From IMG/VR virus record IMGVR_UViG_3300023179_000413, positions 1 through 27,962 of that record: DNA of 27,962 bases. One strand, given 5' to 3'. The notes beneath the pieces were generated by a model. It was not told the origin of the DNA. It made no database searches and saw only the letters and a program-made list of their open reading frames with translations. The stretch comes from a virus. Positions 6,829 to 27,697 of this stretch are shown here, piece by piece; the stretch's first letter is position 1, and each line of letters opens with the position of its first letter. The position numbers and the translations under genes were made by a program.

Positions 6829-6849
6829 AGTTATCTCTTAGAATGAGTA

Positions 6850-6885
6850 AATACAATGTAATATACACCCTTAATAAACATAAGA
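6850..6885 (-). promoter_or_regulatory. Possible start region for tail operon transcription (TATATTACA motif)
   Basis: The gap between the capsid terminator and the first tail gene contains TATATTACATTGTATTTAC on the minus strand. A doubled TATATTACAATT occurs upstream of the portal gene (near 12236-12260). A shared late-promoter -10-like element is possible, but two occurrences in AT-rich DNA are weak evidence. Confidence 0.25.
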
Positions 6886-6900
6886 ACTCTATGGATATAT

Positions 6901-12277: not shown

Positions 12278-15200
12278 CTAATTTCTATAAACTCCGGTAT
12301 AAATATCATCATTTACAGCCGAAGTAAACCATTCTGGTCCTTTATAAAGTTGTCCTTTTGAATCAACCATATCTTTACGATTACCTCCTACTACATCATA
12401 ACTTATTGGCTGTAAAGTTCTATATATTTGTCTAGCTAACATATTTGCTATTAAAAGAGAACTATATCTATCTTTTCTTAATCTTCCTTTTTTACCATTT
12501 GGTAATTTAACTTCTGGAGTATCCCATCGATCTCTAGCATTTGGACCAGTGCTAGTTTGAGTCATAACAATTGTAGTCAATTCATTTTTAAGTTCTTCAA
12601 TTTCTAATATACATTCACTAACACTATCATATATAGGATTTAAATCAGTAGATAAAATATCTTTACCCTCTTTATCTAAAGCTAAACCTAATGTTAAATT
12701 ATCAAATCTTGGAAATAATAATACTTTATCTTCTAAATCTTTTCTTAAACCATGATTAGCCTGACTCGTCCATTCTGCTCTTGCAAATTGAACCATTTCC
12801 AATAAATGTAATCCTGGTTGATTATCAGTATCTTTTGTTTTATCTGTATCTATTATAGGCCATATAAGATGTTCGCCATCTTCTAATTTATTAGGATCAT
12901 GTAATGCTTCTTCTATTGCAACGCCACCGCCCTGAGCATCTATACCTATTTTTGCTGCTGGGAAAGTTTTCATTAAATTACGAATTTTTCTTGCACAATA
13001 TCCATAAAAATCGTGTTCATTAACTAATCCTGTTTTTAATCTTTCTTTAAAATTACTACGATTAGTAGTCCAACAATAAACTATACGACTATGATCAGGA
13101 TGAATTTCTAAAATAGTAATACTAAAATTATCTTGTTCGCTAGCAGGATCTATTCCATAAACATATTTATACTGACCATTACCTTGAGTCACAGCATCAA
13201 ATACTATTTTTTTAGTATTGATAATAATAGGATTATTATCATTAGCAACACAATTTTCTATTAAACTACGTCTGAAAAATCCTTCGCTATCACTAACAAA
13301 ACAAGCTGCATATTCCATATTATAAATCCCGGTGTGGATAGTAGCCTTAGCTCTGCTAACTTGTTTATCATCCATAAATCCTTTAGGAATTAATTCGTAT
13401 GGAATACGAATAATACTATAATCTTTCCAATTAAAATTACTAGGAATTTCTCCTTTAAAAATATCTTGTAATTTATTAGTATCTCCTTTGCTTTCTATAA
13501 TAGCTTTATACCTTTTCCAATATGATGCAAAATGTTTGAAAGCATAATCAGCTGTGCCGCTAATAATAGCTTGATTACCCATTTTTATATTTAGTACTTC
13601 AAGTTCTTCATTCCATAATCCTTGTTTTTTCATTTCATCTTTTCTAGCTTCTTCTTTAACATTTTGTATAGGACTAGCGCTAACAGCAGCGAATCCTGAT
13701 ACTACTGTTTCATAAATATCAGGACTAATAGATGCAAATTCGTCAGCAATAATAATATGTGCTCTTAAACCTCTGATCTTTGAACCATCACCCATTGGAA
13801 TAGCAACTGTCCAACTATCACCAAGTCTTATGGTACATCTGTCTACATCTCGTCTTGGTCCATCATCATTTCCATTAAAGATACTCCTTAATATAGGACT
13901 ATTACGCCATATGGTTTCCATATATTCGAAAATAATTTTACTTTGTCTAAATGCGGCACCAACAACAACAATTTTAGTTCCAGGATAAAAAGCCATGCGT
14001 AAAACACAATATAATCCTAAAAGGAATGAATTATGTGTTACTGTATAATCTTTTGTTAAATATGTATGATCCGGAGTATCTACAGTTATACATTGCATAT
14101 CTTTATATTCATCTAAATATTCTGCTTTTATTATAGAAACATAATTTTCTCCATTAGTTGATTGTTTTTTGATCCTATTTAGTTTTCTTGGAAGTTTTGC
14201 TATTGGTTTAGATGTATTAATATAAACTCTAAAATATTTTGTTCTGTTTTTTATTGTTCCTTGTGGTAGTCTCATTAGTTGTGAAGATCTATCATCAATT
14301 TTTTTAGAACAAGTGATACCTAAACTTCTCAATAAATCTATTAAATCATCAACTAATTTTTCACATGTATTTGTAAACTCTATGGCTCCAGATTTTGATA
14401 TGTGCCCATCTGTATCTATTAGTCCTCTAACTAGTTCTAATCTATCTTCGATACATGAATTTTTATATATCTCTGGAATAAATTTATCTTTACAACCAAC
14501 ATCTAATTTTAGATTTTTAATAATAGAAGTTAATCTATTTCTAATTTTTGATTTATAGTTTATTTTTTTTCCAGATTTATAGACTCTAGTAATAGTAGTA
14601 GAGTCTTTGTCTGTATCTACTATTGTATAATTATAATTAGATTTATCTTTTACTATTTTAAATGTTGGTAATTTATTTTTAAATTTATTAATAATAAAAT
14701 TATCATTGGAGCATATTTTGGGTGTTGCTGTTGTTAAACACCCATCTCCTAGTAAACATCCTAATAAATAGGGGTCTAGAGGAAGTTTTTGTTTTGGTTT
14801 TTGTATAGGTTCACAATTAGGAATTTGATATTTATAAGTTTTTTTCCCATTATTAGATAAAAAAACATGTTGATGAATTATTGTCTTAGTATCTATCGTA
14901 ATTTCTTTGCCATCATTTCTTTTAACAACCCATAGGTGATCTTCGCAACAATCCACTGTTCTTCCATCTAATAGGGTTATTCTACACACTCTTTTTTTAC
15001 CTTGTGGATGAATAGCTATTACATTATGTAACTTACCATCTCTTCCATATATTTTATTACCTATTTTGATATTACCCATTTTAATCCAACCATTATCTGT
15101 TAATATTGGAGTGTCTGTAGTTTCGGCTTTACCCCATCCGCGGCTAGCAATATACATTGGAAAAGCTCTTACCCAAAATTCTTGTAATATATTTATTTGT

Positions 15201-15403
15201 ATAGGATGTAATTCTATATTAAATAGTAGTTTACAAGTAGATCCTAGGTATTTTGGATCTCTTAATAATCGTACTAGATGAAGATCGGGATTCTCAATAT
15301 CAGACTCTAGCCTATTGATCATAGGATTTTTATCAAAATTAATTAATGATAAATCACCTAGACCTAGCCAAGCATCTTCGAATTGAGTATTATTAGATGA
15401 CAT
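12278..15403 (-). CDS. terL: Terminase large subunit, interrupted by an intein
   Basis: The 1041-aa precursor contains a 366-aa intein (residues 93-458), leaving a 675-aa terminase. The N-extein ends ASRGWGK and the C-extein begins SFLLGLYCVL, so the splice restores the Walker A motif SRGWGKS. Walker B is HIIIADEFAS (Asp554 and Glu555). The C-terminal RuvC-fold nuclease shows YGIDPASEQD (Asp752), IGIDAQGGGVAIEEA (Asp822) and a late Asp in RKDRYSSLLIANML. The protein packages DNA through the portal using ATP and cuts concatemers. Downstream is the portal gene. Without splicing the ATPase site would be disrupted, so splicing is presumably essential. Confidence 0.92.
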   Translation of the reverse strand: MSSNNTQFEDAWLGLGDLSLINFDKNPMINRLESDIENPDLHLVRLLRDPKYLGSTCKLLFNIELHPIQINILQEFWVRAFPMYIASRGWGKAETTDTPILTDNGWIKMGNIKIGNKIYGRDGKLHNVIAIHPQGKKRVCRITLLDGRTVDCCEDHLWVVKRNDGKEITIDTKTIIHQHVFLSNNGKKTYKYQIPNCEPIQKPKQKLPLDPYLLGCLLGDGCLTTATPKICSNDNFIINKFKNKLPTFKIVKDKSNYNYTIVDTDKDSTTITRVYKSGKKINYKSKIRNRLTSIIKNLKLDVGCKDKFIPEIYKNSCIEDRLELVRGLIDTDGHISKSGAIEFTNTCEKLVDDLIDLLRSLGITCSKKIDDRSSQLMRLPQGTIKNRTKYFRVYINTSKPIAKLPRKLNRIKKQSTNGENYVSIIKAEYLDEYKDMQCITVDTPDHTYLTKDYTVTHNSFLLGLYCVLRMAFYPGTKIVVVGAAFRQSKIIFEYMETIWRNSPILRSIFNGNDDGPRRDVDRCTIRLGDSWTVAIPMGDGSKIRGLRAHIIIADEFASISPDIYETVVSGFAAVSASPIQNVKEEARKDEMKKQGLWNEELEVLNIKMGNQAIISGTADYAFKHFASYWKRYKAIIESKGDTNKLQDIFKGEIPSNFNWKDYSIIRIPYELIPKGFMDDKQVSRAKATIHTGIYNMEYAACFVSDSEGFFRRSLIENCVANDNNPIIINTKKIVFDAVTQGNGQYKYVYGIDPASEQDNFSITILEIHPDHSRIVYCWTTNRSNFKERLKTGLVNEHDFYGYCARKIRNLMKTFPAAKIGIDAQGGGVAIEEALHDPNKLEDGEHLIWPIIDTDKTKDTDNQPGLHLLEMVQFARAEWTSQANHGLRKDLEDKVLLFPRFDNLTLGLALDKEGKDILSTDLNPIYDSVSECILEIEELKNELTTIVMTQTSTGPNARDRWDTPEVKLPNGKKGRLRKDRYSSLLIANMLARQIYRTLQPISYDVVGGNRKDMVDSKGQLYKGPEWFTSAVNDDIYTGVYRN
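14030..15127 (-). mobile_element. Intein with LAGLIDADG homing endonuclease, class 3-like, in the terminase Walker A
   Basis: Intein of 366 residues, from Ala1 (AETTDTPILTDNGW) to the terminal THN, followed by Ser+1. It lacks the usual Cys/Ser at position 1. It has the three residues that define class 3 inteins: Trp66 two residues after the block B His (EDHLW), Cys346 replacing the block F Asp (MQCITVDTPDHTYL), and Thr364 in block G (VTHN). The endonuclease domain has both LAGLIDADG helices, LLGCLLGDG (about 121-129) and LVRGLIDTDG (about 232-241), each with an acidic residue, so it may still home. Insertion is between Lys and Ser of the P-loop. Confidence 0.9.
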
Positions 15404-20014: not shown

Positions 20015-20042
20015 TTGACAATGTCGATATTAGATGTAGAAT
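20015..20042 (+). promoter_or_regulatory. Array promoter P1
   Basis: TTGACA, 16-nt spacer, TAGAAT. The spacer contains TGTCGATATTAG, the recurrent motif. It reads into the 30-aa gene. Confidence 0.8.
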
Positions 20043-20067
20043 CAAGGAAACGAAAGAGGAATTACTT

Positions 20068-20160
20068 ATGATTATCGATTTTTGCTTCGCTTGCTCCATC
20101 ACGATCCTGTCTTACTACTTCTTCCGAATTATTGAAGAGTTGTACGTCGAGCATATGTAA
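20068..20160 (+). CDS. 30-aa hydrophobic peptide
   Basis: A short frame MIIDFCFACSITILSYYFFR.. ending in EELYVEHM, preceded by AGAGGA with a 7-nt spacer and by a consensus promoter. The first 22 residues are hydrophobic and aromatic with two Cys, so a membrane-inserted peptide is likely. Having its own promoter and ribosome binding site, with stop before the next promoter, supports it as a gene. Function unknown. It may be a leader rather than a functional peptide. Confidence 0.55.
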   Translation: MIIDFCFACSITILSYYFFRIIEELYVEHM

Positions 20161-20190
20161 AGACAAAGAGAGATTCGCTCATTTTTTGTC

Positions 20191-20218
20191 TTGACATTGC
20201 CGATACATAATATAGAAT
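20191..20218 (+). promoter_or_regulatory. Array promoter P2
   Basis: TTGACA, 16-nt spacer with TGCCGATACATAA, TAGAAT. It reads into the 51-aa gene. No four-arm repeat or dyad precedes it. Confidence 0.78.
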
Positions 20219-20237
20219 AGATGAAAAGAAAGAGAGA

Positions 20238-20393
20238 ATGAAAATGACCATTCAAGTTCAAAACACCGTGCGTCGGCTTGTTGCCCATCATGGGTATTCT
20301 GCTTCGTTTGTGCGACATATGGGAGAGGGTATTGTGTTGTACAGTATAGGTGGAATCATGTATCGTATTCGTGGGGATGGTACGATTCTCTGA
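20238..20393 (+). CDS. 51-aa protein of unknown function
   Basis: MKMTIQVQNTVRRLVAHHGY... ending GIMYRIRGDGTIL. The start follows an AAGAGAGA ribosome binding site 20 bases after the -10 box; Met3 is an alternative start. Features are a short basic helix (NTVRRLVAHHGYSASFVRHM) and a beta-hairpin-like end (GIVLYSIGGIMYRIRGDG). It has no Cys or known motif. It ends 14 bases before the next promoter. Confidence 0.6.
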   Translation: MKMTIQVQNTVRRLVAHHGYSASFVRHMGEGIVLYSIGGIMYRIRGDGTIL

Positions 20394-20407
20394 ACAAGCG
20401 CACACTG

Positions 20408-20435
20408 TTGACAGCTCAGGAAGACTCTGTAGAAT
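20408..20435 (+). promoter_or_regulatory. Array promoter P3
   Basis: TTGACA, 16-nt spacer (GCTCAGGAAGACTCTG), TAGAAT. Unlike most array promoters it has neither the CGATA motif nor an upstream dyad, so it may be controlled differently. Confidence 0.75.
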
Positions 20436-20459
20436 ACAACCAACACGAAAGGGAAACTT

Positions 20460-20771
20460 ATGACACACGCTGAAGCAGTTCGGATGGTTCGTGGTAAGAC
20501 TAACAAGGATCGTCGCAAGGTTGGCAACAACACCTACGCGGAGATTCTGAGCGATGGTAGCGTTGGCATTACGCTGCATCGTACTTGTGTGGTGCGAATC
20601 CATGAGGATGGAACGTATACTCTCAGCAATGGTGGATGGTTGACCAGCACCACGAAGGATCGAATCAACCAATATAGTCCGTATCGGGTGTTTCAGAAGA
20701 ACTATGAATGGTTCGTGAGTAAGGGGGAAAAAACTTTTCCTTTCTTCAGTGGAATGGTGATCGGAACTTGA
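20460..20771 (+). CDS. Conserved phage protein of unknown function (GGW-TTKDRIN motif)
   Basis: A 103-aa protein. It has a basic N-terminal helix (MTHAEAVRMVRGKTNKDRRK), then a compact beta domain: NNTYAEILSDGSVGITLHRT, VVRIHEDGTYTLSNGGW, and the signature TSTTKDRINQYSP, ending in FQKNYEWFVSKGEKTFPFF. I recall the pattern 'NTY...dGs..i.LH.T.v......g...L.sgGW.T.TTkdRIN' from many uncharacterised phage proteins. No function is known to me. It has its own promoter and a GGGAAACTT ribosome binding site. Confidence 0.78.
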   Translation: MTHAEAVRMVRGKTNKDRRKVGNNTYAEILSDGSVGITLHRTCVVRIHEDGTYTLSNGGWLTSTTKDRINQYSPYRVFQKNYEWFVSKGEKTFPFFSGMVIGT

Positions 20772-20778
20772 CGCAAAG

Positions 20779-20852
20779 CCTTTGTCGTAAAGCACTTACG
20801 GCGAGGCGGGCGGGCCGCGTTTTATCTAAGTACTTACAGATTAAGGAGTTAG
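20779..20852 (+). repeat. Intergenic four-arm repeat, copy 2
   Basis: Hairpin CGTAA-AGCAC-TTACG, core GGCGAGGCGGGCGGGCCGCG, then CTAAGTACTTA-CAGAT-TAAGGAGTTAG. It lies directly after the 103-aa gene and before the promoter of the 110-aa gene. Confidence 0.85.
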
Positions 20853-20879
20853 GAATTGGCACAGCATTTGCTGTAGAAA

Positions 20880-20897
20880 CCTTACGACATTGCAAGG
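20880..20897. promoter_or_regulatory. Dyad site 2 upstream of promoter
   Basis: CCTTACGACATTGCAAGG, an imperfect palindrome starting 29 bp before TTGACA. Confidence 0.7.
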
Positions 20898-20908
20898 AAA
20901 TTTTCTGG

Positions 20909-20936
20909 TTGACATTCAAGTATGGGATGGTAAAAT
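20909..20936 (+). promoter_or_regulatory. Array promoter P4
   Basis: TTGACA, 16-nt spacer, TAAAAT, followed at once by GTCGATATAAG. It reads into the 110-aa gene. Confidence 0.8.
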
Positions 20937-20972
20937 GTCGATATAAGAAGTAGAGAAGAAAGAGAGAAACGA

Positions 20973-21305
20973 ATGAAAACCAAGTACCCTATCATCGAAA
21001 ACGCTAAGATTCAGGCTCGCATGTGCTTCGTTGGAATTGCAATTCCTCATCAACCGTCTCTGGCTGATGGAACATATGGACCGATTCATAGCGAAAAGGT
21101 TCTCAAGTTCAATCGCAAGGCTTTGCGTCGGCTTGGCAAAGTTCGTGTCGAGAAAGCCGATCCTCGGCTGATTGGTGGTGATGATACCATGATCGTGCCT
21201 GTGGGCAAGCCGGGTTCGCGTGAGCGTGTTGAGGCTTTGCGTAGCCAATACGAGGCTATCGCTGCCTGTGGTGAGGAAGTAAGTCCGTTTGCGTTCAAAG
21301 ATTAG
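20973..21305 (+). CDS. 110-aa protein of unknown function
   Basis: MKTKYPIIENAKIQARMCFV..., a mixed basic protein with a hydrophobic beginning (MCFVGIAIPHQPSLADGTYG), a basic helix (SEKVLKFNRKALRRLGKVRV), a stretch LIGGDDTMIVPVGKPGSRER and a C-terminal helix. No known motif. GC-richer codons than the virion genes. The purine-rich leader AGAAAGAGAGAAACGA supplies the ribosome binding site. It is a single-gene transcription unit between repeat copies 2 and 3. Confidence 0.7.
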   Translation: MKTKYPIIENAKIQARMCFVGIAIPHQPSLADGTYGPIHSEKVLKFNRKALRRLGKVRVEKADPRLIGGDDTMIVPVGKPGSRERVEALRSQYEAIAACGEEVSPFAFKD

Positions 21306-21340
21306 GCAAAGTTGCCACATAATTGTGCAATCCTCATAGA

Positions 21341-21425
21341 TTGACGTAACCCTATGCTGCATAACGACTTGTGACATAGCGGGCGGGACTCATTTGTCAT
21401 AAGTACTTAGCAGATAAAGACTTAG
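21341..21425 (+). repeat. Intergenic four-arm repeat, copy 3 (compound)
   Basis: The core GCGGGCGGG is enclosed by ACTTGTGACA and TGTCATAAGT, which pair at all ten positions counting one G-U. The 5' part (TTGACGTAACCC..GCTGCATAACGACTT) resembles the 3' half of copy 4, so this looks like a fusion of two units. Confidence 0.75.
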
Positions 21426-21430
21426 AACCA

Positions 21431-21448
21431 CCTTATCAGATTGTAAGG
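21431..21448. promoter_or_regulatory. Dyad site 3 upstream of promoter
   Basis: CCTTATCAGATTGTAAGG, starting 29 bp before TTGACA, the same spacing as site 2. Confidence 0.65.
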
Positions 21449-21459
21449 AAAGTTCTAGA

Positions 21460-21487
21460 TTGACATTCAAGAAGAGAATGGTAGAAT
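21460..21487 (+). promoter_or_regulatory. Array promoter P5
   Basis: TTGACA, 16-nt spacer, TAGAAT, followed by GACGATATAAGAG. It reads into the two-gene unit of 78 aa and 64 aa. Confidence 0.8.
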
Positions 21488-21519
21488 GACGATATAAGAG
21501 AAAGAAAGAGAGAGAAAAA

Positions 21520-21756
21520 ATGACACACAATGAACTGGCTGGTATCGTGATGAGTTCGATCATGCAGGAGAGGAAGAACACTACTCCCGTGTATGCTTCG
21601 CTGTTGATGGCTGATTTTGATTCGTGGGATAATGGTAACAAGCCAACCCAACGATTGCTGAGTGCGGTGAATCAGTACGTTGGTGGTGGACAGCACACCA
21701 TCCCAAAGATTCTGGAAGCTTCTCGTATGTTGTACGATCAGAGCAAGGTTGCTTGA
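21520..21756 (+). CDS. 78-aa protein of unknown function
   Basis: MTHNELAGIVMSSIMQERKN..., mostly helical, with an acidic/aromatic turn (MADFDSWDNGNKPTQRLLSA) and a Gly-rich loop (YVGGGQHTIPKILEASRML). No Cys, no known motif. Its ribosome binding site is AGAGAGAGAA. It is the first gene of a two-gene unit; the 64-aa gene starts 17 bases downstream. Confidence 0.7.
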   Translation: MTHNELAGIVMSSIMQERKNTTPVYASLLMADFDSWDNGNKPTQRLLSAVNQYVGGGQHTIPKILEASRMLYDQSKVA

Positions 21757-21772
21757 ATAGGAGACAGATACA

Positions 21773-21967
21773 ATGCAAGATTCCTACTTTTTCGCCGTGA
21801 TGGATAAGATGGAAACTGCTACTTTACAAGAGTGGCTCAGGAATGCTCAAGTTGAACTTCCGAATGCTAAGGGTAGTAAGAGAACCCTTCTCTTGGAGGG
21901 TATTCGTTGTTCGGCATACGTTTTGCTGACGCGATTCAGAGAGTGGAAGCAAACCCTTGGCATATAA
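21773..21967 (+). CDS. 64-aa helical protein of unknown function
   Basis: MQDSYFFAVMDKMETATLQE..., predicted all-helical with LQEWLRNAQVELPNAKGSKR and a basic/aromatic C-terminus (LLTRFREWKQTLGI). The start is supported by AGGAGACAGATACA-ATG. It is co-transcribed with the 78-aa gene. Its stop codon lies inside the first arm of repeat copy 4 (CATATAAGGACTT). Confidence 0.7.
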   Translation: MQDSYFFAVMDKMETATLQEWLRNAQVELPNAKGSKRTLLLEGIRCSAYVLLTRFREWKQTLGI

Positions 21968-22028
21968 GGACTTACGACGAGCGGGGCGGGCCGCGTTTGA
22001 CGTAACTCTTTACTGCATAAGCGTTTAG
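21961..22028 (+). repeat. Intergenic four-arm repeat, copy 4
   Basis: AAGGACTTACGACG, core GCGGGGCGGGCCGCG, then TTTGACGTAACTCTTTA and ATAAGCGTTTAG. ACTTACG/CGTAACT pair with one mismatch. The 5' arm overlaps the stop codon of the preceding gene. Confidence 0.85.
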
Positions 22029-22033
22029 GGCAA

Positions 22034-22050
22034 CCTTACGACATTGTCAG
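22034..22050. promoter_or_regulatory. Dyad site 4, right half degraded
   Basis: CCTTACGACATTG followed by TCAGT. Its left half starts 18 bp before TTGACA, eleven bp closer than sites 2, 3 and 6. Confidence 0.6.
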
Positions 22051-22051
22051 T

Positions 22052-22080
22052 TTGACAACTCAAGAATGGTGCTGTAGAAT
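22052..22080 (+). promoter_or_regulatory. Array promoter P6
   Basis: TTGACA, 17-nt spacer, TAGAAT, followed by GTCGATATAAGAGA. It reads into the 75-aa gene. Confidence 0.8.
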
Positions 22081-22113
22081 GTCGATATAAGAGACAGAAA
22101 GAGAGAGTGAAAG

Positions 22114-22341
22114 ATGAGTATGGCTTCTGAGATGTTCGATTTTGCGATTGGTGATGTGCTCCATGTGGTCTACGATACTGGAGAGGTGTTCACTGGTCCT
22201 CTGGTCAGGGTACGAGAGATCGAAGGTAAGGGTGTTCTGTTGTTGGTGAAGGATGAGAACGTTGGCCATCGGTCCATCTATACTCACAAGTGTGTTGGGC
22301 CTATCCTGTTTCGTTCACCCGGAGAAAAGACTCCCGACTGA
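22114..22341 (+). CDS. 75-aa beta-rich protein of unknown function
   Basis: MSMASEMFDFAIGDVLHVVYDTG..., with alternating strands (GDVLHVVYDTGEVFTGPLVR, GKGVLLLVKDENVGHRSIYT). It looks like a small beta barrel (SH3-like), but this is only an impression. One Cys. The purine-rich AGAGAGAGTGAAAG leader carries the ribosome binding site. The next gene starts 12 bases after its stop. Confidence 0.68.
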   Translation: MSMASEMFDFAIGDVLHVVYDTGEVFTGPLVRVREIEGKGVLLLVKDENVGHRSIYTHKCVGPILFRSPGEKTPD

Positions 22342-22352
22342 GGGGATTGACA

Positions 22353-22580
22353 ATGACTAACTTTCCGCGTATGATGTTCTTTGCTACTACCACTTCAACG
22401 GAGGATACGATGCTCGATTTTGAGGATATCAACAGGATTCTTGACGAGATGGCTCAAGAGAAGATTCTTGAGCCGACAGTGGAGCCCATTGATGACCCCG
22501 ATATCCAGATGGATTTTTATGATTGGGCTGAAGTTGTTGGACTGAGCGATGAAATTGAGCCGGATATCAGGTGGGCTTAA
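22353..22580 (+). CDS. Acidic 75-aa protein of unknown function
   Basis: MTNFPRMMFFATTTSTEDTM.. followed by a very acidic, helical body (LDFEDINRILDEMAQEKILE, PTVEPIDDPDIQMDFYDWAE). I chose ATG 22353 with GAGGGG 7 nt upstream; ATG 22410 (MLDFEDINRIL) has an equally good GGAGG at 5 nt and would give a 56-aa form. No Cys and no known motif. It is the second gene of a unit with the 75-aa beta-rich protein. A DNA-mimic or protein-interaction role is possible but unsupported. Confidence 0.65.
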   Translation: MTNFPRMMFFATTTSTEDTMLDFEDINRILDEMAQEKILEPTVEPIDDPDIQMDFYDWAEVVGLSDEIEPDIRWA

Positions 22581-22661
22581 CCTAAAGCCTTGTCGCACAA
22601 ACACTTGCGACGAGGCGGGCCCGCCCCGCGAATCGTAAGTCCTTATGCCACAATGACTTAG
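22581..22661 (+). repeat. Intergenic four-arm repeat, copy 5
   Basis: GTCGCA-CAAACACT-TGCGAC hairpin, then the core with the perfect palindrome GGCGGGCCCGCC, then TCGTAAGTCCTTAT and ATGACTTAG. ACTTGCGA/TCGTAAGT pair throughout with one G-U. Confidence 0.85.
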
Positions 22662-22666
22662 AGAAA

Positions 22667-22684
22667 GCTTACAACATTGCAAGA
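22667..22684. promoter_or_regulatory. Dyad site 5 upstream of promoter
   Basis: GCTTACAACATTGCAAGA, starting 28 bp before TTGACA. Confidence 0.6.
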
Positions 22685-22694
22685 AAAAATCCAT

Positions 22695-22723
22695 TTGACA
22701 ACTAAAGTTCCACCTGCTAGAAT
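22695..22723 (+). promoter_or_regulatory. Array promoter P7
   Basis: TTGACA, 17-nt spacer, TAGAAT, followed by GTCGATAATAAGAG. It reads into the 62-aa gene. Confidence 0.8.
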
Positions 22724-22758
22724 GTCGATAATAAGAGTAGAGAAAGAGAGAGTGAAGA

Positions 22759-22947
22759 ATGAGTAGGTACTACGAAGGTCGTTTCAACCCGTACAATCGT
22801 CATGATACGGGAATGTATGTGATTTATCGTAAGAGTGATAGGCAGTATCTTGGAACGGTCACGAATTGCAAGAACGAGTATCAAGCAGAACGTGTGGGTA
22901 TCGCCAAGTACGGTTGTGAAGTTTTTGTAAGCTTGATTGAGGAATAG
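22759..22947 (+). CDS. 62-aa protein of unknown function
   Basis: MSRYYEGRFNPYNRHDTGMY.., with VIYRKSDRQYLGTVTNCKNE and a C-terminal AERVGIAKYGCEVFVSLIEE. The layout (beta strands, a helix, then a strand) resembles the 60-aa protein at 25294 (WAVVQDCRIVGYV...AVRMAENKYGSRLFVERV). Both share a 'strand, AER/AVR-x-A-x-x-KYG, hydrophobic strand' ending, so they may be distant paralogues. Two Cys. Single-gene unit with an AGAGAGAGTGAAGA leader. Confidence 0.68.
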   Translation: MSRYYEGRFNPYNRHDTGMYVIYRKSDRQYLGTVTNCKNEYQAERVGIAKYGCEVFVSLIEE

Positions 22948-22951
22948 AGGC

Positions 22952-22980
22952 TTGACAGCCTAAAGTTTTTCTGGTAGACT
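22952..22980 (+). promoter_or_regulatory. Array promoter P8
   Basis: TTGACA, 17-nt spacer, TAGACT, followed by GCCGATATAAG. It starts 5 bases after the stop of the 62-aa gene, with no four-arm repeat in between. Confidence 0.78.
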
Positions 22981-23003
22981 GCCGATATAAGAAAGAGAGG
23001 AAA

Positions 23004-23261
23004 ATGATGAGTCACCCTGACCCCCTGTTCGATCCCGATAACTCCTATGAGGATGATATGAACTATAATGATCACAATGATTTCTATGAGGATTACAATG
23101 AGATGGTTGAGGATGGTGCTGATCAAGACTGGGATGATTCATACGATGATAGCATGGATGGAGATCATGAATCCGGTCTTACGAGTGCAGGTTGGGGCTT
23201 GGACGAATCATATGATCCGTCATACGACCATGACGAGTATGATCACGGAGGAGATTGGTGA
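23004..23261 (+). CDS. Extremely acidic Asp/Tyr-rich 85-aa protein
   Basis: MMSHPDPLFDPDNSYEDDMN... The protein is dominated by Asp, Glu, Tyr, Asn and His, with repeated D-x-Y/Y-D/E-D patterns (DHNDFYEDYNEMVEDGADQD, WDDSYDDSMDGDHES, DESYDPSYDHDEYDHGGDW). It has no Cys, Lys or Arg and no recognisable fold, so it is probably disordered. Phages use highly acidic DNA-mimic proteins against host defence enzymes; whether this is one is speculation. GAGAGG lies 3 nt before the first ATG and 6 nt before the second (23007), so the second may be the true start. Confidence 0.7.
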   Translation: MMSHPDPLFDPDNSYEDDMNYNDHNDFYEDYNEMVEDGADQDWDDSYDDSMDGDHESGLTSAGWGLDESYDPSYDHDEYDHGGDW

Positions 23262-23284
23262 TTATGTAGAATAATATTCACCTC

Positions 23285-23316
23285 TTGACAAGCAACGTAG
23301 ACTATAGTGGTATACA
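23285..23316 (+). promoter_or_regulatory. Possible weak promoter P9
   Basis: TTGACA followed by TATACA after 20 nt (or TATAGT after 12 nt); neither spacing is good. It lies between the acidic-protein gene and the 74-aa gene. Confidence 0.35.
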
Positions 23317-23337
23317 CCAACAAAAGGAGAAAATTGA

Positions 23338-23562
23338 ATGAGTACGCACCGATTCTTTGATATTGTGGTTGAGGGCGACAATGGAGATACTTCCGTGCCC
23401 AATGAATATATTCTCAACATGCCAGATCACAATATGGAAACTCCTATGGATCGTCAAGAGTTTCTAGGTATTATGATGGATACTCTGGTAGCGACTAGTG
23501 GACTGAACGTGTGTTCATTCAGAAGCGAACCTGTACGATTGAACACTGTGGGTGATTACTGA
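23338..23562 (+). CDS. 74-aa acidic protein of unknown function
   Basis: MSTHRFFDIVVEGDNGDTSV.. with NEYILNMPDHNMETPMDRQE and FLGIMMDTLVATSGLNVCSF, ending NTVGDY. Met-rich, one Cys, no known motif. The start has AAAAGGAGAAAATTGA-ATG. Its stop codon TGA is the first bases of the outer arm of repeat copy 6 (GATCGTAAACC). Confidence 0.68.
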   Translation: MSTHRFFDIVVEGDNGDTSVPNEYILNMPDHNMETPMDRQEFLGIMMDTLVATSGLNVCSFRSEPVRLNTVGDY

Positions 23563-23647
23563 TCGTAAACCCTTAGCCCGTAAAGACTTACGGCGGGCGG
23601 GGCCGGCCGGATTTGACGTAAGTGCTGATGCCATATAGGTTTAGATC
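23561..23647 (+). repeat. Intergenic four-arm repeat, copy 6, with an outer closing stem
   Basis: CCGTAA-AGAC-TTACGG hairpin, core GGGCGGGGCCGGCCGG, then GACGTAAGTGC and GGTTTAGATC. ACTTACG/CGTAAGT pair perfectly; the ends GATCGTAAACC and GGTTTAGATC also pair, so the whole unit can fold as one nested structure. Confidence 0.87.
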
Positions 23648-23671
23648 AAAAAGATTTTTTCAAGATCAACC

Positions 23672-23699
23672 TTGACAAGTGTCGATAATATGGTAGACT
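23672..23699 (+). promoter_or_regulatory. Array promoter P10 (drives structured RNA A)
   Basis: TTGACA, 16-nt spacer containing TGTCGATAATA, TAGACT. An ATG (MKKQTIELNVRKI, 13 codons) begins 6 nt after the -10 box, without a ribosome binding site. Confidence 0.75.
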
Positions 23700-23705
23700 G
23701 ATAGC

Positions 23706-23920
23706 ATGAAGAAACAAACAATAGAATTGAATGTGCGTAAGATATAGGAACTGGGCAAGGGTCATCACTCTCACCAGAGCGGTAGTGGCCAGCACGATAA
23801 CCGTCCCAAGCGTCTGCGAACCAGAGGAGCCAAGAATCGAAAAGCTATTGGTGAGGGGTGGTAGAGTCACACCTAATCCTTCGGATTTGGCTGGGGTGGC
23901 TGTAGTCAGCCAAAAATTAG
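23706..23920 (+). ncRNA. Candidate structured RNA A
   Basis: About 215 bases between two promoters, with no convincing gene. CACTCTCACC (near 23768) can pair with GGTGAGGGGTG (near 23849). The 3' end (23873-23920) forms a three-way arrangement: CTAAT/ATTAG closing, ATCC-TTC-GGAT, and TTTGGCTG/CAGCCAAA. The last 50 bases recur at 27651-27697. A 69-aa frame crosses the region but also runs through the next promoter. No similarity to a known RNA class is evident to me. Confidence 0.55.
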
Positions 23921-23925
23921 TGATC

Positions 23926-23954
23926 TTGACAAACAGATAATGATAGAGTAGAAT
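23926..23954 (+). promoter_or_regulatory. Array promoter P11
   Basis: TTGACA, 17-nt spacer (with AGATAATGATAG), TAGAAT. It follows the 3' module of RNA A by a few bases and reads into the 40-aa membrane peptide. Confidence 0.75.
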
Positions 23955-23974
23955 GGTGCAAAAGGAGAGCAAGG

Positions 23975-24097
23975 ATGCCTGAGTTTGATCTAGTTAGTGC
24001 TGTTATTGGTTATATTATTGGGGTATTTCTTTGTCATAATACCCAAAATATTCTTTTTATGGAGAAGCGTAATGAAGGCGACTGTAACGATTACTGA
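23975..24097 (+). CDS. 40-aa single-pass membrane peptide
   Basis: MPEFDLVSAVIGYIIGVFLC... with a hydrophobic segment from about residue 6 to 20 (LVSAVIGYIIGVFL), then polar HNTQNILFMEKRNEGDCNDY. Start supported by AAAAGGAGAGCAAGG-ATG and an upstream consensus promoter. The last 26 bases overlap the start of the next gene, indicating coupled translation. Short phage membrane proteins of this size may act in lysis or exclusion; no specific evidence here. Confidence 0.65.
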   Translation: MPEFDLVSAVIGYIIGVFLCHNTQNILFMEKRNEGDCNDY

Positions 24098-24302
24098 TAC
24101 TTTTGGTGGTGAGCCTAACTATGGTTGGGTGAAGAGGTACGATTTTGTGACTGATGTTAATTCGTCTCAGCACAAGATTACTCGACAAGCGAAGGCTCTG
24201 GTTGGTATGACCGGCGTCAAGAGCGATACTCAGGATTTTGATGTTGGCTTGACCATCAAGCCTCGTGGATATAATCAGATTATTTTTGTGGATTTTGAAT
24301 AA
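24072..24302 (+). CDS. Conserved phage 76-aa protein of unknown function
   Basis: MKATVTITDTFGGEPNYGWV..., chosen start with GGAG 7 nt upstream; a longer frame to 23997 would overlap the membrane peptide gene entirely and lacks a site. The plan 'TDTFGGEPNYGWVKRYDF ... TRQAKALVGMTG ... GLTIKPRGYNQIIFV' is one I recall from many uncharacterised phage proteins. Beta-alpha-beta layout. Function unknown. It is the second gene of a two-gene unit. Confidence 0.75.
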   Translation: MKATVTITDTFGGEPNYGWVKRYDFVTDVNSSQHKITRQAKALVGMTGVKSDTQDFDVGLTIKPRGYNQIIFVDFE

Positions 24303-24313
24303 ATTCGATCTCC

Positions 24314-24395
24314 CATAAACCCTTTGTACACAAGTACTTAGGGTCGGTGGGGCGGGCCGGATTTGTTCTAAGTCCTTATCTTATAAGTATTTGCG
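24314..24395 (+). repeat. Intergenic four-arm repeat, copy 7
   Basis: CCCTTTGTAC-ACAA-GTACTTAGGG hairpin, core GGTGGGGCGGGCCGG, then CTAAGTCCTTATC and TTATAAGTATTTG. Here arm 2 and arm 3 are ACTTAG/CTAAGT, a compensated change from ACTTAC/GTAAGT. Confidence 0.85.
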
Positions 24396-24399
24396 TTAA

Positions 24400-24417
24400 T
24401 CTTACAGCATTGCAAGG
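24400..24417. promoter_or_regulatory. Dyad site 6 upstream of promoter
   Basis: TCTTACAGCATTGCAAGG, starting 29 bp before TTGACA. Confidence 0.65.
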
Positions 24418-24428
24418 TAAAAATTCAT

Positions 24429-24456
24429 TTGACATCTAAAGTCTTTGTGCTAGAAT
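24429..24456 (+). promoter_or_regulatory. Array promoter P12
   Basis: TTGACA, 16-nt spacer, TAGAAT, followed by GTCGATAATAG. It reads into the 50-aa gene. Confidence 0.8.
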
Positions 24457-24489
24457 GTCGATAATAGAAGTAGAGAAAGTGAGAAAAAG

Positions 24490-24642
24490 ATGAAAGAGGA
24501 AAAGAAAAAGCGTTTGACTGAGTATCAGAAAGCTGTGGTTCTCATGGATCGTGAGACAAACAGAGCTATTGCTCATGTGGAAATGCTGAAGAAATTGTAT
24601 GGTGAAGCTAAGAAAAAAGTCAAGTTACCGCTTGACAAATGA
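24490..24642 (+). CDS. 50-aa highly basic helical protein
   Basis: MKEEKKKRLTEYQKAVVLMD.. RETNRAIAHVEMLKKLYGEAKK.., a Lys-rich, fully helical protein with no Cys. Promoter, purine-rich leader (GAGAAAAAG) and start are consistent. Its last codons are also the -35 region of the next promoter: the C-terminal Leu-Asp-Lys-stop is written by CTTGACAAATGA. Function unknown; DNA or RNA binding is possible from charge alone. Confidence 0.68.
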   Translation: MKEEKKKRLTEYQKAVVLMDRETNRAIAHVEMLKKLYGEAKKKVKLPLDK

Positions 24643-24660
24643 CGATAATTGTTGTAGAAT
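24632..24660 (+). promoter_or_regulatory. Array promoter P13, overlapping the end of the 50-aa gene
   Basis: TTGACA, 17-nt spacer with TGACGATAATT, TAGAAT. The -35 box lies within the preceding coding region. Confidence 0.8.
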
Positions 24661-24701
24661 GTTCGAAGTTGTGATCTGAATTTCCTAACGAAAGGGTTGA
24701 T

Positions 24702-25109
24702 ATGAGTGATTTGACGTTTGTATTTGGTGGTGTTGCTGTCATTGCTGCTGTTGTTGCTGCGTTTCTGACGTATGCTGTCTATGGTGGTTCTAGGGGTTCT
24801 CTGAGTTCGGCTAAGATTGGCGAAGTGTATAACTTTGTCTATGAGCAGCCTGCTAAGGGTGATCCTGAACGTTATCTTGCTAAGGTTGTGGATGTGTATA
24901 CTCTGGATAGTAACAGTATTCGAAGACTGAATGCTCGTAGTGCGTATCGTCGTAATGATCCTCAGTTTGTGCGTACCAATCATTTGGTTACTTGTGAGAT
25001 GCCAAATGGTAGTGTTCGTAACTTCTATGCGGAACGTACCAGAAACTGCCGAAAGCCATTGCTCGCTGGGACTCTCTTCAAGAGCGGTCTGGCAGCAATG
25101 ATGTTCTGA
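24702..25109 (+). CDS. 135-aa membrane-anchored protein, conserved phage type, function unknown
   Basis: MSDLTFVFGGVAVIAAVVAA... begins with one transmembrane segment (about residues 5-28, very Val/Ala-rich, ending FLTYAVYGG). The soluble part has KIGEVYNFVYEQPAKGDPER, YLAKVVDVYTLDSNSIRRLN, YRRNDPQFVRTNHLVTCEMP and FYAERTRNCRKPLL. I recall this 'GEPERYLAKVLDV...RRLN..S.YRKNDPEFVRT.HLVT' pattern in other uncharacterised phage proteins. The soluble domain probably faces the cytoplasm. Start: AAAGGGTTGAT-ATG. Confidence 0.75.
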   Translation: MSDLTFVFGGVAVIAAVVAAFLTYAVYGGSRGSLSSAKIGEVYNFVYEQPAKGDPERYLAKVVDVYTLDSNSIRRLNARSAYRRNDPQFVRTNHLVTCEMPNGSVRNFYAERTRNCRKPLLAGTLFKSGLAAMMF

Positions 25110-25129
25110 TCTCACGATTATGTAAGCCA

Positions 25130-25213
25130 AGCCCTAAAGTGTTGCTACGGCAGCACTTAGGGCGAGGCCGTGCCGCCCCGTTTGACGCAACTCTTTGTGG
25201 ATAAGGGGTTTAG
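25130..25213 (+). repeat. Intergenic four-arm repeat, copy 8
   Basis: Strong first hairpin GCCCTAAAGTGTTGC-TACG-GCAGCACTTAGGGC (one bulge, one wobble), core GAGGCCGTGCCGCCCCG, then TTTGACGCAACTC and GGGGTTTAG. In this copy the arm 2/arm 3 pairing is poor. Confidence 0.8.
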
Positions 25214-25241
25214 AACAATTCTTTTTTCTCAAGTTTTTCGC

Positions 25242-25270
25242 TTGACACGCCGATAATACTAGTGTAGAAT
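25242..25270 (+). promoter_or_regulatory. Array promoter P14
   Basis: TTGACA, 17-nt spacer starting CGCCGATAATA, TAGAAT. An AT-rich stretch (CTTTTTTCTCAAGTTTTTC) replaces the dyad. It reads into a three-gene unit. Confidence 0.8.
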
Positions 25271-25293
25271 ACGAGAATAAGAGGAGAGGACAA

Positions 25294-25476
25294 ATGAATC
25301 TTTATACATGGGCTGTTGTTCAGGATTGTAGAATTGTTGGCTATGTAAGAGCATATAGCGAATGGGATGCTGTTCGCATGGCCGAAAATAAGTATGGCTC
25401 TAGACTCTTTGTAGAGCGAGTGTATCTTGGTGATTGGATTGCTGAGAGTAAGGAGAAAAATAATGAGCCTGTCTAA
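25294..25476 (+). CDS. 60-aa protein of unknown function
   Basis: MNLYTWAVVQDCRIVGYVRA.. with YSEWDAVRMAENKYGSRLFV and a polar end. Strand-helix-strand layout, one Cys. It resembles the 62-aa protein at 22759 in the KYG-strand C-terminal half. Ribosome binding site AGAGGAGAGGACAA-ATG. It overlaps the next gene by 14 bases and is first of a three-gene unit. Confidence 0.7.
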   Translation: MNLYTWAVVQDCRIVGYVRAYSEWDAVRMAENKYGSRLFVERVYLGDWIAESKEKNNEPV

Positions 25477-25660
25477 TGAAGAAAAGAGTTTGATTGCTGA
25501 CCACGTTTCTACTTTTGCTATGAAAATGATTCTTAGTATAGGATCTTCTGAGGAAAATATTCATGAGGATCTTGATGCTTTCTATGATTTCTTTTGTAAT
25601 GCTTTGTGTGCTGCCAAGCGTGATGCTAGGCGTGAAGCATTGACTACCACAACTAACTGA
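25463..25660 (+). CDS. 65-aa helical protein of unknown function
   Basis: MSLSNEEKSLIADHVSTFAM.., chosen start because AAGGAG lies 7 nt upstream; the frame is open to 25427 but earlier starts lack a site. Predicted all-helical, with an acidic middle (SSEENIHEDLDAFYDFFCNA) and basic end (AAKRDARREALTTTTN). Two Cys. Translation is probably coupled to the gene before it. Function unknown. Confidence 0.68.
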   Translation: MSLSNEEKSLIADHVSTFAMKMILSIGSSEENIHEDLDAFYDFFCNALCAAKRDARREALTTTTN

Positions 25661-25672
25661 AAGATTTCTACT

Positions 25673-26152
25673 ATGCCTAACTGGTGCATGAACAAGTTGA
25701 CCGTTTCCCATGCTAATCCTGACATGGTTGACCGATTTGAGAACGCTTATAATCTTGGTAAGGCTTGTAATGAGTTTTTACCATTACCAGAGGGTGAAGA
25801 TTGGTATAACTGGCAAATAAATAACTGGGGCACCAAGTGGGATATTGGGGCCGATATGGGTACTGACAAAGAAGAAAGGTATGGATTGAAAGCAACTAGG
25901 GTGGATAACGAGGTTAGTTGCTCATTTGATAGTGCTTGGAGTCCTCCTATTGGACTGTATGATAAACTGATTGAATTGGGATATGACGTAAAGGCTACCT
26001 ATTGGGAGCCGGGTATGGCTTTCTGTGGCATATGGGATAATGGAGCCGATCACTATTGTGATTATACTAGCAAGGATATGATTCCTGTAGCCTTGTGGAA
26101 CGAGTACGATATGGCGGAATTTTTCAAGGATGATGAAGAAATAAACGCCTGA
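25673..26152 (+). CDS. Api92/YubB-like protein with ferredoxin-like domain
   Basis: A 159-aa protein. MPNWCMNKLTVSHANPDMVD, EFLPLPEGEDWYNWQINNWG, TKWDIGADMG and SFDSAWSPPIGLYDKLIELG are the signature of the DUF1281 (Api92-like/YubB ferredoxin-like) family found in phages and plasmids: N-terminal 'MPNWC-NxLTV', central 'W-x-NWGTKWD', then 'F.TAWSPP'. The biochemical role is not established. It ends EEINA after an acidic helix. It is third in the unit, 12 bases after its neighbour, with a weak ribosome binding site (GAAAG). Confidence 0.88.
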   Translation: MPNWCMNKLTVSHANPDMVDRFENAYNLGKACNEFLPLPEGEDWYNWQINNWGTKWDIGADMGTDKEERYGLKATRVDNEVSCSFDSAWSPPIGLYDKLIELGYDVKATYWEPGMAFCGIWDNGADHYCDYTSKDMIPVALWNEYDMAEFFKDDEEINA

Positions 26153-26163
26153 ATCGTCCCTTC

Positions 26164-26247
26164 GCCCTAAGTGCTTTGCCCAAGGGTACTTAGGACGAGG
26201 GTGGTCCGCAGGGTTCATCCTAAGTGCTTACTGGCATTGGGTTTAGA
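26164..26247 (+). repeat. Intergenic four-arm repeat, copy 9
   Basis: Arms CCTAAGTGC, GTACTTAGG, CCTAAGTGC and GGGTTTAGA around GAGGGTGGTCCGCAGGG. ACTTAGGA/TCCTAAGT pair perfectly over 8 bp. Arm 1 and arm 3 are the same sequence, so arm 2 can pair with either. Confidence 0.87.
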
Positions 26248-26285
26248 ACTAGCAAAAATCTTTTTAGAATTCCTGTAGATAGCTC

Positions 26286-26314
26286 TTGACAAGTGACGAT
26301 AATAGATGTAGAAT
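26286..26314 (+). promoter_or_regulatory. Array promoter P15 (drives a structured RNA)
   Basis: TTGACA, 17-nt spacer with TGACGATAATA, TAGAAT. No coding sequence follows for more than 350 bases; the transcript begins about 15 bases before the structured RNA. Confidence 0.8.
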
Positions 26315-26336
26315 GATAGAGTTGAGAGGATAGAAC

Positions 26337-26468
26337 CAAGCACAGGGCTATAAGAGAATCCCGTTGGCATCGGATTATAGGTGGTAGCCACCACTATTCC
26401 CGCTAGCTGGACTATCGAGGTCCGTTAGCAGCGCCTGTCGTGAGCATGGTCATGATGCTCTGTGCTTG
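26337..26468 (+). ncRNA. Candidate multibranched structured RNA
   Basis: CAAGCACA (26337) pairs perfectly with TGTGCTTG (26461). Inside are four hairpins: CTAT/ATAG with AATCC/GGATT; GGTGG-TAG-CCACC; GCTAG/TTAGC with GGAC/GTCC; and GAGCAT-GGTCATG-ATGCTC. It is preceded by a consensus promoter and contains no credible reading frame. The overall shape is a closed junction of four arms, about 132 nt. I do not recognise it as tRNA, 6S, tmRNA or a known riboswitch. Confidence 0.7.
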
Positions 26469-26682
26469 ATTCTGACCTTTTGACAATACAAACTATGCGT
26501 GGGTCAATGCCTTGGACTAGATTGGGATAACCTATTTCGATAAACTTTCTCTGAAAGATTGGGGAGTTGCCGACGGGGTTATACGTTGGATAGAAATACC
26601 AGTTTATGGGGGATAGCGTCCTCACCACGACCAATACAATCAGTACCGATACTAATTTTTGTGTGATTATTGGGAGAGGTAA
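26469..26682 (+). other. Non-coding stretch between the structured RNA and the 68-aa gene
   Basis: About 210 bases without a frame over 15 codons on this strand. There is a TTGACA at 26480 with no matching -10 box. Short hairpins are visible (CTTTC-TCT-GAAAG near 26544; GATAACC pairing with GGGTTAT). It may be a long leader or a further RNA. Confidence 0.4.
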
Positions 26683-26889
26683 ATGAATTGGCATTATGAT
26701 AATCCTATTGTGAATGGAGAATATCTTTGTTGTATCAAGGATTACTCTTTTCCTATCCCCTTGAATTGGTACGATGGTGATTGGGGCGATTGGAATAAAG
26801 ATGGTGATGGAGAATGGATACCATTTGACAATGATCTAGTGGTCTGTTATACTAGCTTTCAAGAAATCCCTATGCCGGAGAATTGGTAA
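26683..26889 (+). CDS. Trp/Asp-rich 68-aa protein of unknown function
   Basis: MNWHYDNPIVNGEYLCCIKD..., with NWYDGDWGDWNKDGDGEW and ending EIPMPENW. It is rich in Trp, Asp and Gly; a beta-sheet domain resembling small 'NGEYL.. W.DG.W' proteins of phages is likely, though the function is not known to me. Two adjacent Cys. The start has GGGAGAGGTAA-ATG. Its stop overlaps the next start as TAATG. Confidence 0.7.
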   Translation: MNWHYDNPIVNGEYLCCIKDYSFPIPLNWYDGDWGDWNKDGDGEWIPFDNDLVVCYTSFQEIPMPENW

Positions 26890-27053
26890 TGACAACCGAA
26901 AACACAGAACTAAAAGAACTAAAACAACTTGTTGGTGAGTTTTTGAATGCTGCTTATTATGTGCCTTTTAGGGCCGTTGACTGTGACCAACTGCTGGTAG
27001 AAGAATTGTGGAAAAAGTTGGCTGATGCCGTAAATTTTCAAAAAAAGAGATAA
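26889..27053 (+). CDS. 54-aa helical protein of unknown function
   Basis: MTTENTELKELKQLVGEFLN.. AAYYVPFRAVDCDQLLVEEL.. ending ADAVNFQKKR. The start overlaps the stop of the previous gene by one base (TAATG), so translation is coupled. Predicted coiled/helical with a mixed charge pattern and one Cys. No family recognised. It is followed by 49 bases without a clear promoter. Confidence 0.62.
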   Translation: MTTENTELKELKQLVGEFLNAAYYVPFRAVDCDQLLVEELWKKLADAVNFQKKR

Positions 27054-27102
27054 AATATAATACCAACTAAACCTGTCAAAAATTATCCTGAGAATTACCC
27101 GA

Positions 27103-27315
27103 ATGGCTAAGAACTTCAGAGACTTGAATACTGTGGAAGCTTGCAACATGAATCGTGAACAGGCAATGATCTATCTTATCAACTTTTTTAACTCTCGTAT
27201 GAGTGCTGTTAACAAGCATAACGTAAGTAAGGCTAAAGAGTTGATTGGATTGCATGAGGTATCGGTAGCAGAACTGGTAAACACATATGTGGAGCTAGTA
27301 CTTGAAAATTCTTAG
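27103..27315 (+). CDS. 70-aa helical protein of unknown function
   Basis: MAKNFRDLNTVEACNMNREQ.., mostly helical (AMIYLINFFNSRMSAVNKHN, VSKAKELIGLHEVSVAELVN). The site before ATG 27103 is weak (CCTGAGAATTACCCGA); Met16 at 27148 is an alternative start. One Cys. The 3' end overlaps the start of the small Cys-rich gene by 14 bases. Function unknown. Confidence 0.6.
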   Translation: MAKNFRDLNTVEACNMNREQAMIYLINFFNSRMSAVNKHNVSKAKELIGLHEVSVAELVNTYVELVLENS

Positions 27316-27427
27316 TGATATTTGTCCGTGTGGCGAGTGTGATACTCTGGTGTGGAGGTATGACAATAATGGAATTATCTGGAAGTTTTGCCAGCAGTGT
27401 CATTGGTGGTTTATCGGTAACTCCTGA
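27302..27427 (+). CDS. 41-aa four-Cys zinc-ribbon-like protein with TTG start
   Basis: Starting at TTG 27302, with GGAG 7 nt upstream, the frame reads MKILSDICPCGECDTLVW.. IIWKFCQQCHWWFIGNS. It has CxxC pairs at residues 10/13 and 30/33 plus Cys8, a plausible zinc ribbon. It overlaps the 70-aa gene by 14 bases and ends at the edge of repeat copy 10. There is no ATG, so the gene is easily missed. The Cys spacing and ribosome binding site are the support. Confidence 0.55.
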   Translation: MKILSDICPCGECDTLVWRYDNNGIIWKFCQQCHWWFIGNS

Positions 27428-27497
27428 CAGGATAAGGACTTAGGAAAAGCCGGGCGGGCCGGGTTCGTCGTAACTCTTTATCTACCAATACTTTACG
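27427..27497 (+). repeat. Intergenic four-arm repeat, copy 10
   Basis: GGACTTAGGA, core AGCCGGGCGGGCCGGG, then CGTAACTCTTTA and AATACTTTACG (CGTAA pairs with TTACG). The arm 2/arm 3 pairing is partial. Confidence 0.8.
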
Positions 27498-27524
27498 TCT
27501 ACAAAAATTTTTTAAAGACCGTTC

Positions 27525-27552
27525 TTGACTCTTGCCGATAATAGAGTATACT
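27525..27552 (+). promoter_or_regulatory. Array promoter P16 (drives structured RNA B)
   Basis: TTGACT, 16-nt spacer with TGCCGATAATAG, TATACT. Confidence 0.75.
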
Positions 27553-27558
27553 GAATGA

Positions 27559-27697
27559 GCGAGTAGATGAGGGCCGCTGGCAGAATGATATCAAAGAAGC
27601 CACGGTTAAATGGCTGTCGAGTATGGCTCAACCCTATCTATTTGTCTCTGCTAATCCTGCGGATTTGGGCTGAGTGGGTATAGTCAGCCAAATATTG
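27559..27697 (+). ncRNA. Candidate structured RNA B
   Basis: About 140 bases between two promoters. It has AGCCA/TGGCT and, at its 3' end (27651-27697), the module CTAATCC-TGC-GGATT followed by GGCTGA/TCAGCC, shared with RNA A. A 37-codon frame at 27571 overlaps the conserved module and has no ribosome binding site, so it is probably not a gene. Confidence 0.5.

Follow-up and report, generated by a model that had tools for sequence, protein, structure and literature searches.

The window analysed here is the whole 27,962-base stretch of the viral record IMGVR_UViG_3300023179_000413 from IMG/VR. Its structural and packaging genes are located on the minus strand, and the last 8 kb carry many small ORFs on the plus strand with their own promoters. 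Between ORF 25673-26152 and ORF 26683-26889 lies an array of structured RNAs, surrounded by what appear to be early genes (Table 1). No match to named phages is found for the array region, the window DNA, a 737-aa protein or the stretch from module A to module C; the other genes of the window give only weak protein matches. These absent or weak named-phage matches point to no particular host. The large terminase (12278-15403, minus strand) contains a LAGLIDADG homing-endonuclease domain (PF14528, residues 322-373), which is probably an intein, and the named-phage matches to its residues ~90-480 are helicases and other proteins.

Table 1. Features of the RNA array and its surroundings in the window.
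Feature	Position	Strand	Basis
Intergenic repeat element preceding the promoter, with TAAGTNCTTA-type palindromes	26156..26246	+	this copy read by eye
Sigma70-type promoter TTGACA-17-TAGAAT	26286-26314	+	11/12 consensus matches
Module H, multibranched RNA with a 26-pair closing stem from the nominal start	26321..26484	+	fold, no homolog found
Linker AATACAAACTA between H and A	26485..26495	+	sequence reading; AATACAA common at junctions
Module A, conserved four-way junction with an H-type pseudoknot	26496..26634	+	covariance model 142.6 bits, covariation
Linker CCAATACAA after A	26631..26639	+	sequence reading and A alignment
5' remnant TCAGTACCG of module C, truncated by a deletion	26640..26648	+	comparison with L085/L089/L092
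Last eight codons CVIIGRGK* of the ORF that follows C in relatives (L085)	26660..26686	+	left by the same deletion
ORF, 68 aa, directly downstream of the array	26683..26889	+	ORF list, relatives compared
Module J, second small structured RNA	27565..27640	+	own promoter 27525-27552

The preliminary description of this DNA, made from the sequence alone, had placed a consensus promoter 22 bases upstream of its RNA, and this promoter is indeed present. An operator-like CGATAATA (26297-26304) sits between its hexamers, and the nominal start site, G26321, is seven bases past the end of the -10 box. The 29 bases of the promoter are identical to the 29-mer in front of the array of locus L085, where A follows directly and H is absent. 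The intergenic element upstream of the promoter is one of about eight degenerate copies (repeat families D1/D2, inverted repeat I17), and a near-identical stretch is found in L086. These copies are ~60-80 nt long, are spread over 20775-27501 and consist of such palindromes with a GC-rich centre; they are positioned between gene groups and the next promoter. The motif CGATA(A)TA overlaps or adjoins many sigma70-type promoters of the right arm (20020-27552), as a phage operator would. A second consensus promoter, TTGACA-17-TATACT (26825-26853), is found inside ORF 26683-26889 and seems to be retained in L204. Another repeat, the 53-nt element D12 (CTAATCCTNCGGATTTGG...GTAGTCAGCC), occurs at 23866-23918 and 27644-27696, after RNA J or ORF-like stretches, and also behind unrelated ORFs in L026 and L029. 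Because it follows ORFs in relatives, D12 was rejected as an array module and left out of the arrays as an intergenic or 3' element; it is likely a 3' or termination element. Upstream of the first D12 copy, 23705-23865 resembles by eye a small basic ORF of L026 but has an in-frame TAG, and may thus be a decayed gene.

Module H is closed by a stem of 26 pairs, not the 8 bp previously described; it extends between G26321 and C26484, includes two single mismatches and has pair probabilities of at least 0.86. The stem thus begins at the nominal start site and ends at the linker AATACAAAC. The duplex formed by its first and last 30 nt has an energy of -36.2 kcal/mol, which is reached by none of 1000 dinucleotide shuffles, and 26 pairs are reached by none of 300. 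Inside the closing stem the minimum-energy fold shows three hairpins where four had been proposed; the 5-bp hairpin with the TAG triloop (GGTGG-TAG-CCACC) is retained. The fold of 26315-26480 has an energy of -64.4 kcal/mol (z -4.49), and none of 200 shuffles is as good. In a sliding fold scan H ranks 8th of 670 windows (z -3.98), and some coding stretches score equally; the z-score alone is weak evidence for H and would make no case by itself. As stated before, no frame is present: counted from a start codon, plus-strand frames over H reach at most 22 aa. On the minus strand an ORF of 89 aa overlaps 26425-26694, although it covers the conserved RNA.

That conserved RNA is module A, and it carries the structure well past position 26480, where the feature had been thought to end, to about 26639. 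It was first seen in a BLAST search of 26150-26700 against 80 terminase-selected loci, in which 26497-26638 matched L008/L009 at 82.5% and H was unmatched. An alignment of 38 copies of A, ~110-165 nt long, supports an acceptor-like stem and two arms like the D and T arms of a tRNA, with a long helix at the place of the anticodon stem; the H-type pseudoknot lies within this helix. In the named structure 96.7% of the cells are paired and both-side changes are observed in 19 of 37 pairs; one pair of the pseudoknot is CG in 23 sequences and GC in 15. No shuffle among 500 reaches any of five measures. When the partners are slid against each other the pairing falls to 28-46%, a control that leans in favour of the structure, which was partly drawn from the same sequences. 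RNAalifold, run without pseudoknots, recovers most stems and adds a covarying pair to the acceptor-like stem, and the covariance model built from its structure gives the score listed for the window copy. With this model A is detected in 25 of 30 whole records, usually as a single copy; the window copy is ~96% identical to that of L092. Conserved pairing among relatives is therefore strongly supported by covariation for A, just downstream of the RNA originally proposed, while for H itself no relatives were found.

At the 3' end of A, CCA at the linker start is seen in most copies, with GCA, GTA, TTCA and TTATA among the variants. This CCA is not invariant, which weakens ideas of the aminoacylation type. 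The T-arm reads GAUNGCRU in most copies and UGCGAAU/UGCGAUU in a minority (the second copy of L085/L086, L136, L203); H lacks such a T-loop. Because the CCA is variable and a T-loop-like sequence occurs in few copies, we call A tRNA-like in its layout rather than a tRNA. To be noted, the array of the window is damaged. By comparison with relatives, it has lost module C together with the larger part of the ORF that comes next, and the remaining codons of this ORF run into ORF 26683.

The loci compared were collected by a terminase search (80 loci), a search with the ORF upstream of the array (17 loci) and two DNA patterns (30 and 55 stretches), the patterns being taken from the end of A and from the start of linker-C, so that these stretches carry a selection bias. 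Among the pattern-free loci, 10 of the 17 from the upstream-ORF search have A behind the same kind of promoter (L084-L092 and L094), and so do three of six terminase-only records as far as the presence of A is concerned (L017, L021, L029, L041, L062 and L076 being the six). Six of the 17 have no A (L095-L100), and L093 ends soon after the gene; for five of those seven (L093, L095, L096, L098, L099) the stretch behind the upstream gene was read. L095 and L096 are distant relatives with the same upstream gene; at 6490-6900, in the corresponding place, both have non-coding sequence that is unrelated but looks structured and contains AATACAA/AATAATATAA linkers, which suggests a locus type wider than module A. 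A separate genome scan with the linker-C pattern yielded 22 loci, none of which had a module seed at E<=0.01; L176 proved to be a repeat-protein gene, and all 22 were dropped as chance. L156, from the viral scan, was dropped likewise for the lack of a seed at E<=0.01.

No relative of H was found by BLAST at E<=1e-3 in 164 loci, by profile search in 186 loci or at E<=0.01 in 86 distinct whole records (50 and 40, four in both), and none of its exact 16-mers occurs in the viral collection. Twelve loci that match a pattern of its closing stem are unrelated and all due to chance. Since no relative is found, conservation neither supports nor refutes the fold of H.

Many large freshwater phages have such an array. 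After deduplication we distinguish, across uncultured phages, 44 arrays that contain A or Y, its stand-in, and these show 39 architectures. Their layout is a promoter, one or more variable 5' modules, A, optional modules and C, often joined by AATACAA. A contig end truncates 6 of the 44 arrays, and the other 38 all have a promoter TTGACA-16/17-TANNNT with CGAT inside just upstream. AATACAA is present in 73 of 132 module junctions; in the 72 junctions untouched by the search patterns it is present in 27, against ~0.005 expected per junction, and 45 are without an exact AATACAA. Pairs of A copies that are at least 90% identical have different 5' modules in 25 of 32 cases. L092, for example, has E-F-K-AC-K-AB-D where the window has H. 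Because near-identical A copies usually differ in their 5' modules, and because L085 has the same promoter without H, the comparison identifies the position of H as an exchange (cassette) slot.

Modules were followed with 26 seeds in a profile search over 186 loci and the window. Automatic splitting of the arrays at linkers merged modules and was replaced by these hand-picked seeds, so both seeds and letters are our choice. The 25 families besides H have 1 to 48 distinct copies each, and H has one. The 19 families with at least two copies show 90-100% pairing in their consensus folds and both-side changes in 17 of the 19, although many of them are represented by just 2-6 copies and several controls fall short of significance. 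The closing stems of many seeds are no longer than those of shuffles, and in the plain minimum-energy fold B and N lack a closing stem. Module J is found directly before A in L134, L139, L151, L165 and L141 and is solo in many phages. Several modules resemble tRNA. X scores 26 bits against the Rfam tRNA model, below the cut-off of 29; the tRNA-like unit after M reaches 37.8 bits; W and Y have T-arm-like ends. In the arrays of L155, L158, L142, L166 and L162, tRNA-like modules with D-like and T-arms are observed whose anticodon arms are oversized or replaced. A Pistol self-cleaving ribozyme (53.7 bits) is present at 10613-10675 of L085, a 232-kb relative, ~3-4 kb downstream of its array.

In agreement with the expectation that the RNA belongs to no known family, Rfam searches of the window at the gathering cut-off and of 26150-26700 at E<=5 give only chance-level matches (TCL6_2, E 0.52; toga_FSE, E 2.1; mir-BART19, E 3.7). 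No module matches an Rfam family besides tRNA, with relaxed searches covering five arrays. No tRNA is found in the window by ARAGORN or Rfam; ARAGORN makes five tRNA calls among 48 array sequences, none of them in the window. In the same 48 sequences it finds no tmRNA, and no tag reading frame is seen. There is no Rfam match to 6S RNA, which is a rod with a large central bubble, and H is multibranched. The curated model of bacterial Y RNA (YrlA-like) has no match in the window.

On balance, H probably occupies the 5' cassette position in a large-phage array of non-coding structured RNAs, which would be polycistronic and act in trans. From a sigma70 promoter of the host type, with an operator-like phage motif, one transcript would be produced, made up of discrete, self-closed RNA domains with short unpaired AATACAA linkers. 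A would be its conserved tRNA-like junction with a pseudoknot, usually with C next, and the 5' slot would be exchanged between phages such that each phage has its own set of modules. The architecture, the promoter, the linkers, the pairing of A and the cassette exchange can be read from the sequences. We further infer that the array is transcribed and that its modules act in trans, because in relatives a promoter often lies directly after C and unrelated folds replace each other; the transcript would presumably be processed into units, and the modules would most likely act as separate or linked structured RNAs. They may bind or mimic host RNA-handling proteins such as tRNA-directed enzymes, ribosome-associated factors or RNA-sensing defence, and the turnover of cassettes would then reflect an arms race. 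A function as decoys for host proteins involved in tRNA handling or in sensing phage RNA is speculative, and we would sooner doubt it than assume it. Among functions it is favoured because several modules mimic tRNA and cassettes turn over rapidly among apparent early genes. The multibranched, non-coding RNA with its own promoter that was originally proposed is thus retained, but as the first module of a longer array and not as a complete unit.

The array could instead serve the small ORFs downstream as an extended structured 5' leader, or as a stabiliser, acting in cis on translation or decay. The window itself would fit this reading, as there is neither a promoter nor a terminator between H and ORF 26683, and about nine of 40 copies of C (read from a listing) are immediately followed by an ORF with a ribosome-binding site. 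In the same listing, however, a new TTGAC promoter comes directly after about 11-12 of the 40, and at least four T within 4 nt of C are seen in 18 of 40 copies. Furthermore, the ORF behind the array differs among phages, and modular swapping of unrelated folds would be odd for a cis element. We therefore regard a leader as unlikely. The earlier view that the RNA is no leader is favoured by relatives with a promoter after the array, but in the window the array enters the ORF without a further promoter and may still have a leader role. It is similarly improbable that a single ornate RNA of the GOLLD/ROOL kind, large and multimer-forming, has H, A and C as its domains and the linkers as internal hinges. 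The large-phage origin, the conserved order of A and C and the embedded tRNA-like units after M would agree with such an RNA, and GOLLD also combines a conserved 3' region with a variable 5' region and has tRNAs in its linker, as described in PMC12286853. Against it, the models of GOLLD, ROOL and OLE match neither the window nor ten related loci, nor, at relaxed E-values (E<=1 to 3), the arrays of L085, L092, L139, L131 and L157; some modules are found singly (J) or in two copies (A in L085 and L139); and H and A are predicted to fold separately, with a summed cross-pairing probability of 0.02.

A further explanation concerns H alone, which could be an insert that entered the 5' slot recently and folds but has no function, with A as the only functional part. 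The uniqueness of H in the whole records and in the viral collection would be expected of such an insert; in addition, six of the 44 arrays have no 5' module at all and the window array is already without C. On the other hand, the closing stem fits exactly from the start site to the linker and beats every one of the 1000 shuffles, and the recurrent 5' occupants B, D, E, F, J and K keep their pairing (97-100% of cells), so we give this explanation little credence. Returning to the cassette array, one may tentatively go further and imagine a dedicated structured-RNA cassette locus in large freshwater phages, driven by a promoter and built from a constant tRNA-like pseudoknot core and an exchangeable 5' slot, from which newly captured effectors such as H are deployed jointly against RNA-targeting defences of the host or the translation machinery; this is a possibility that we would not yet count on. 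If true, the cassette locus would be for RNAs what anti-defence islands are for proteins. Should the arrays be expressed, a single locus found in many large phages would yield about two dozen uncharacterised types of structured RNA with a shared architecture. It would then be a source of RNA effectors, with a covariation-supported tRNA-like pseudoknot fold, and a natural system to test whether phage RNA modules are used like anti-defence genes.

In open-licence PubMed Central text we found no description of such arrays. Known phage decoy RNAs, such as pseudo-antitoxin RNAs and RNA anti-CRISPRs, occupy a host protein, and the array would share with them its inferred mode of working; these decoys are single repeats or repeat mimics, whereas the array consists of unrelated folds. 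The general topology of tmRNA is similar to that of A, from the acceptor-like stem and the D-like arm, through a long helix that replaces the anticodon stem, to the pseudoknot and the T-like arm; A differs in its small size, and no tag frame is seen in it. Closest to the array in general character are GOLLD and ROOL, which are likewise phage RNAs with no assigned function, with conserved and variable parts and sometimes embedded tRNAs (PMC12286853). The array differs from them in being made of many short independent domains instead of one fold of 500-800 nt, and in lacking a covariance-model match. The nearest known kind is the phage tRNA gene cluster, since X, W and the unit after M are tRNA-like. 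Such clusters are also polycistronic sets of small, linker-separated structured RNAs of large phages, and true tRNAs are found near the arrays of L090 and L087. In contrast to these clusters, most array modules are not tRNAs, the tRNA-like ones have enlarged or replaced anticodon arms, and the modules around the conserved pseudoknot core vary in order and content by exchange. We know of no counterpart for most of the modules, the exchange slot and the pseudoknot core.
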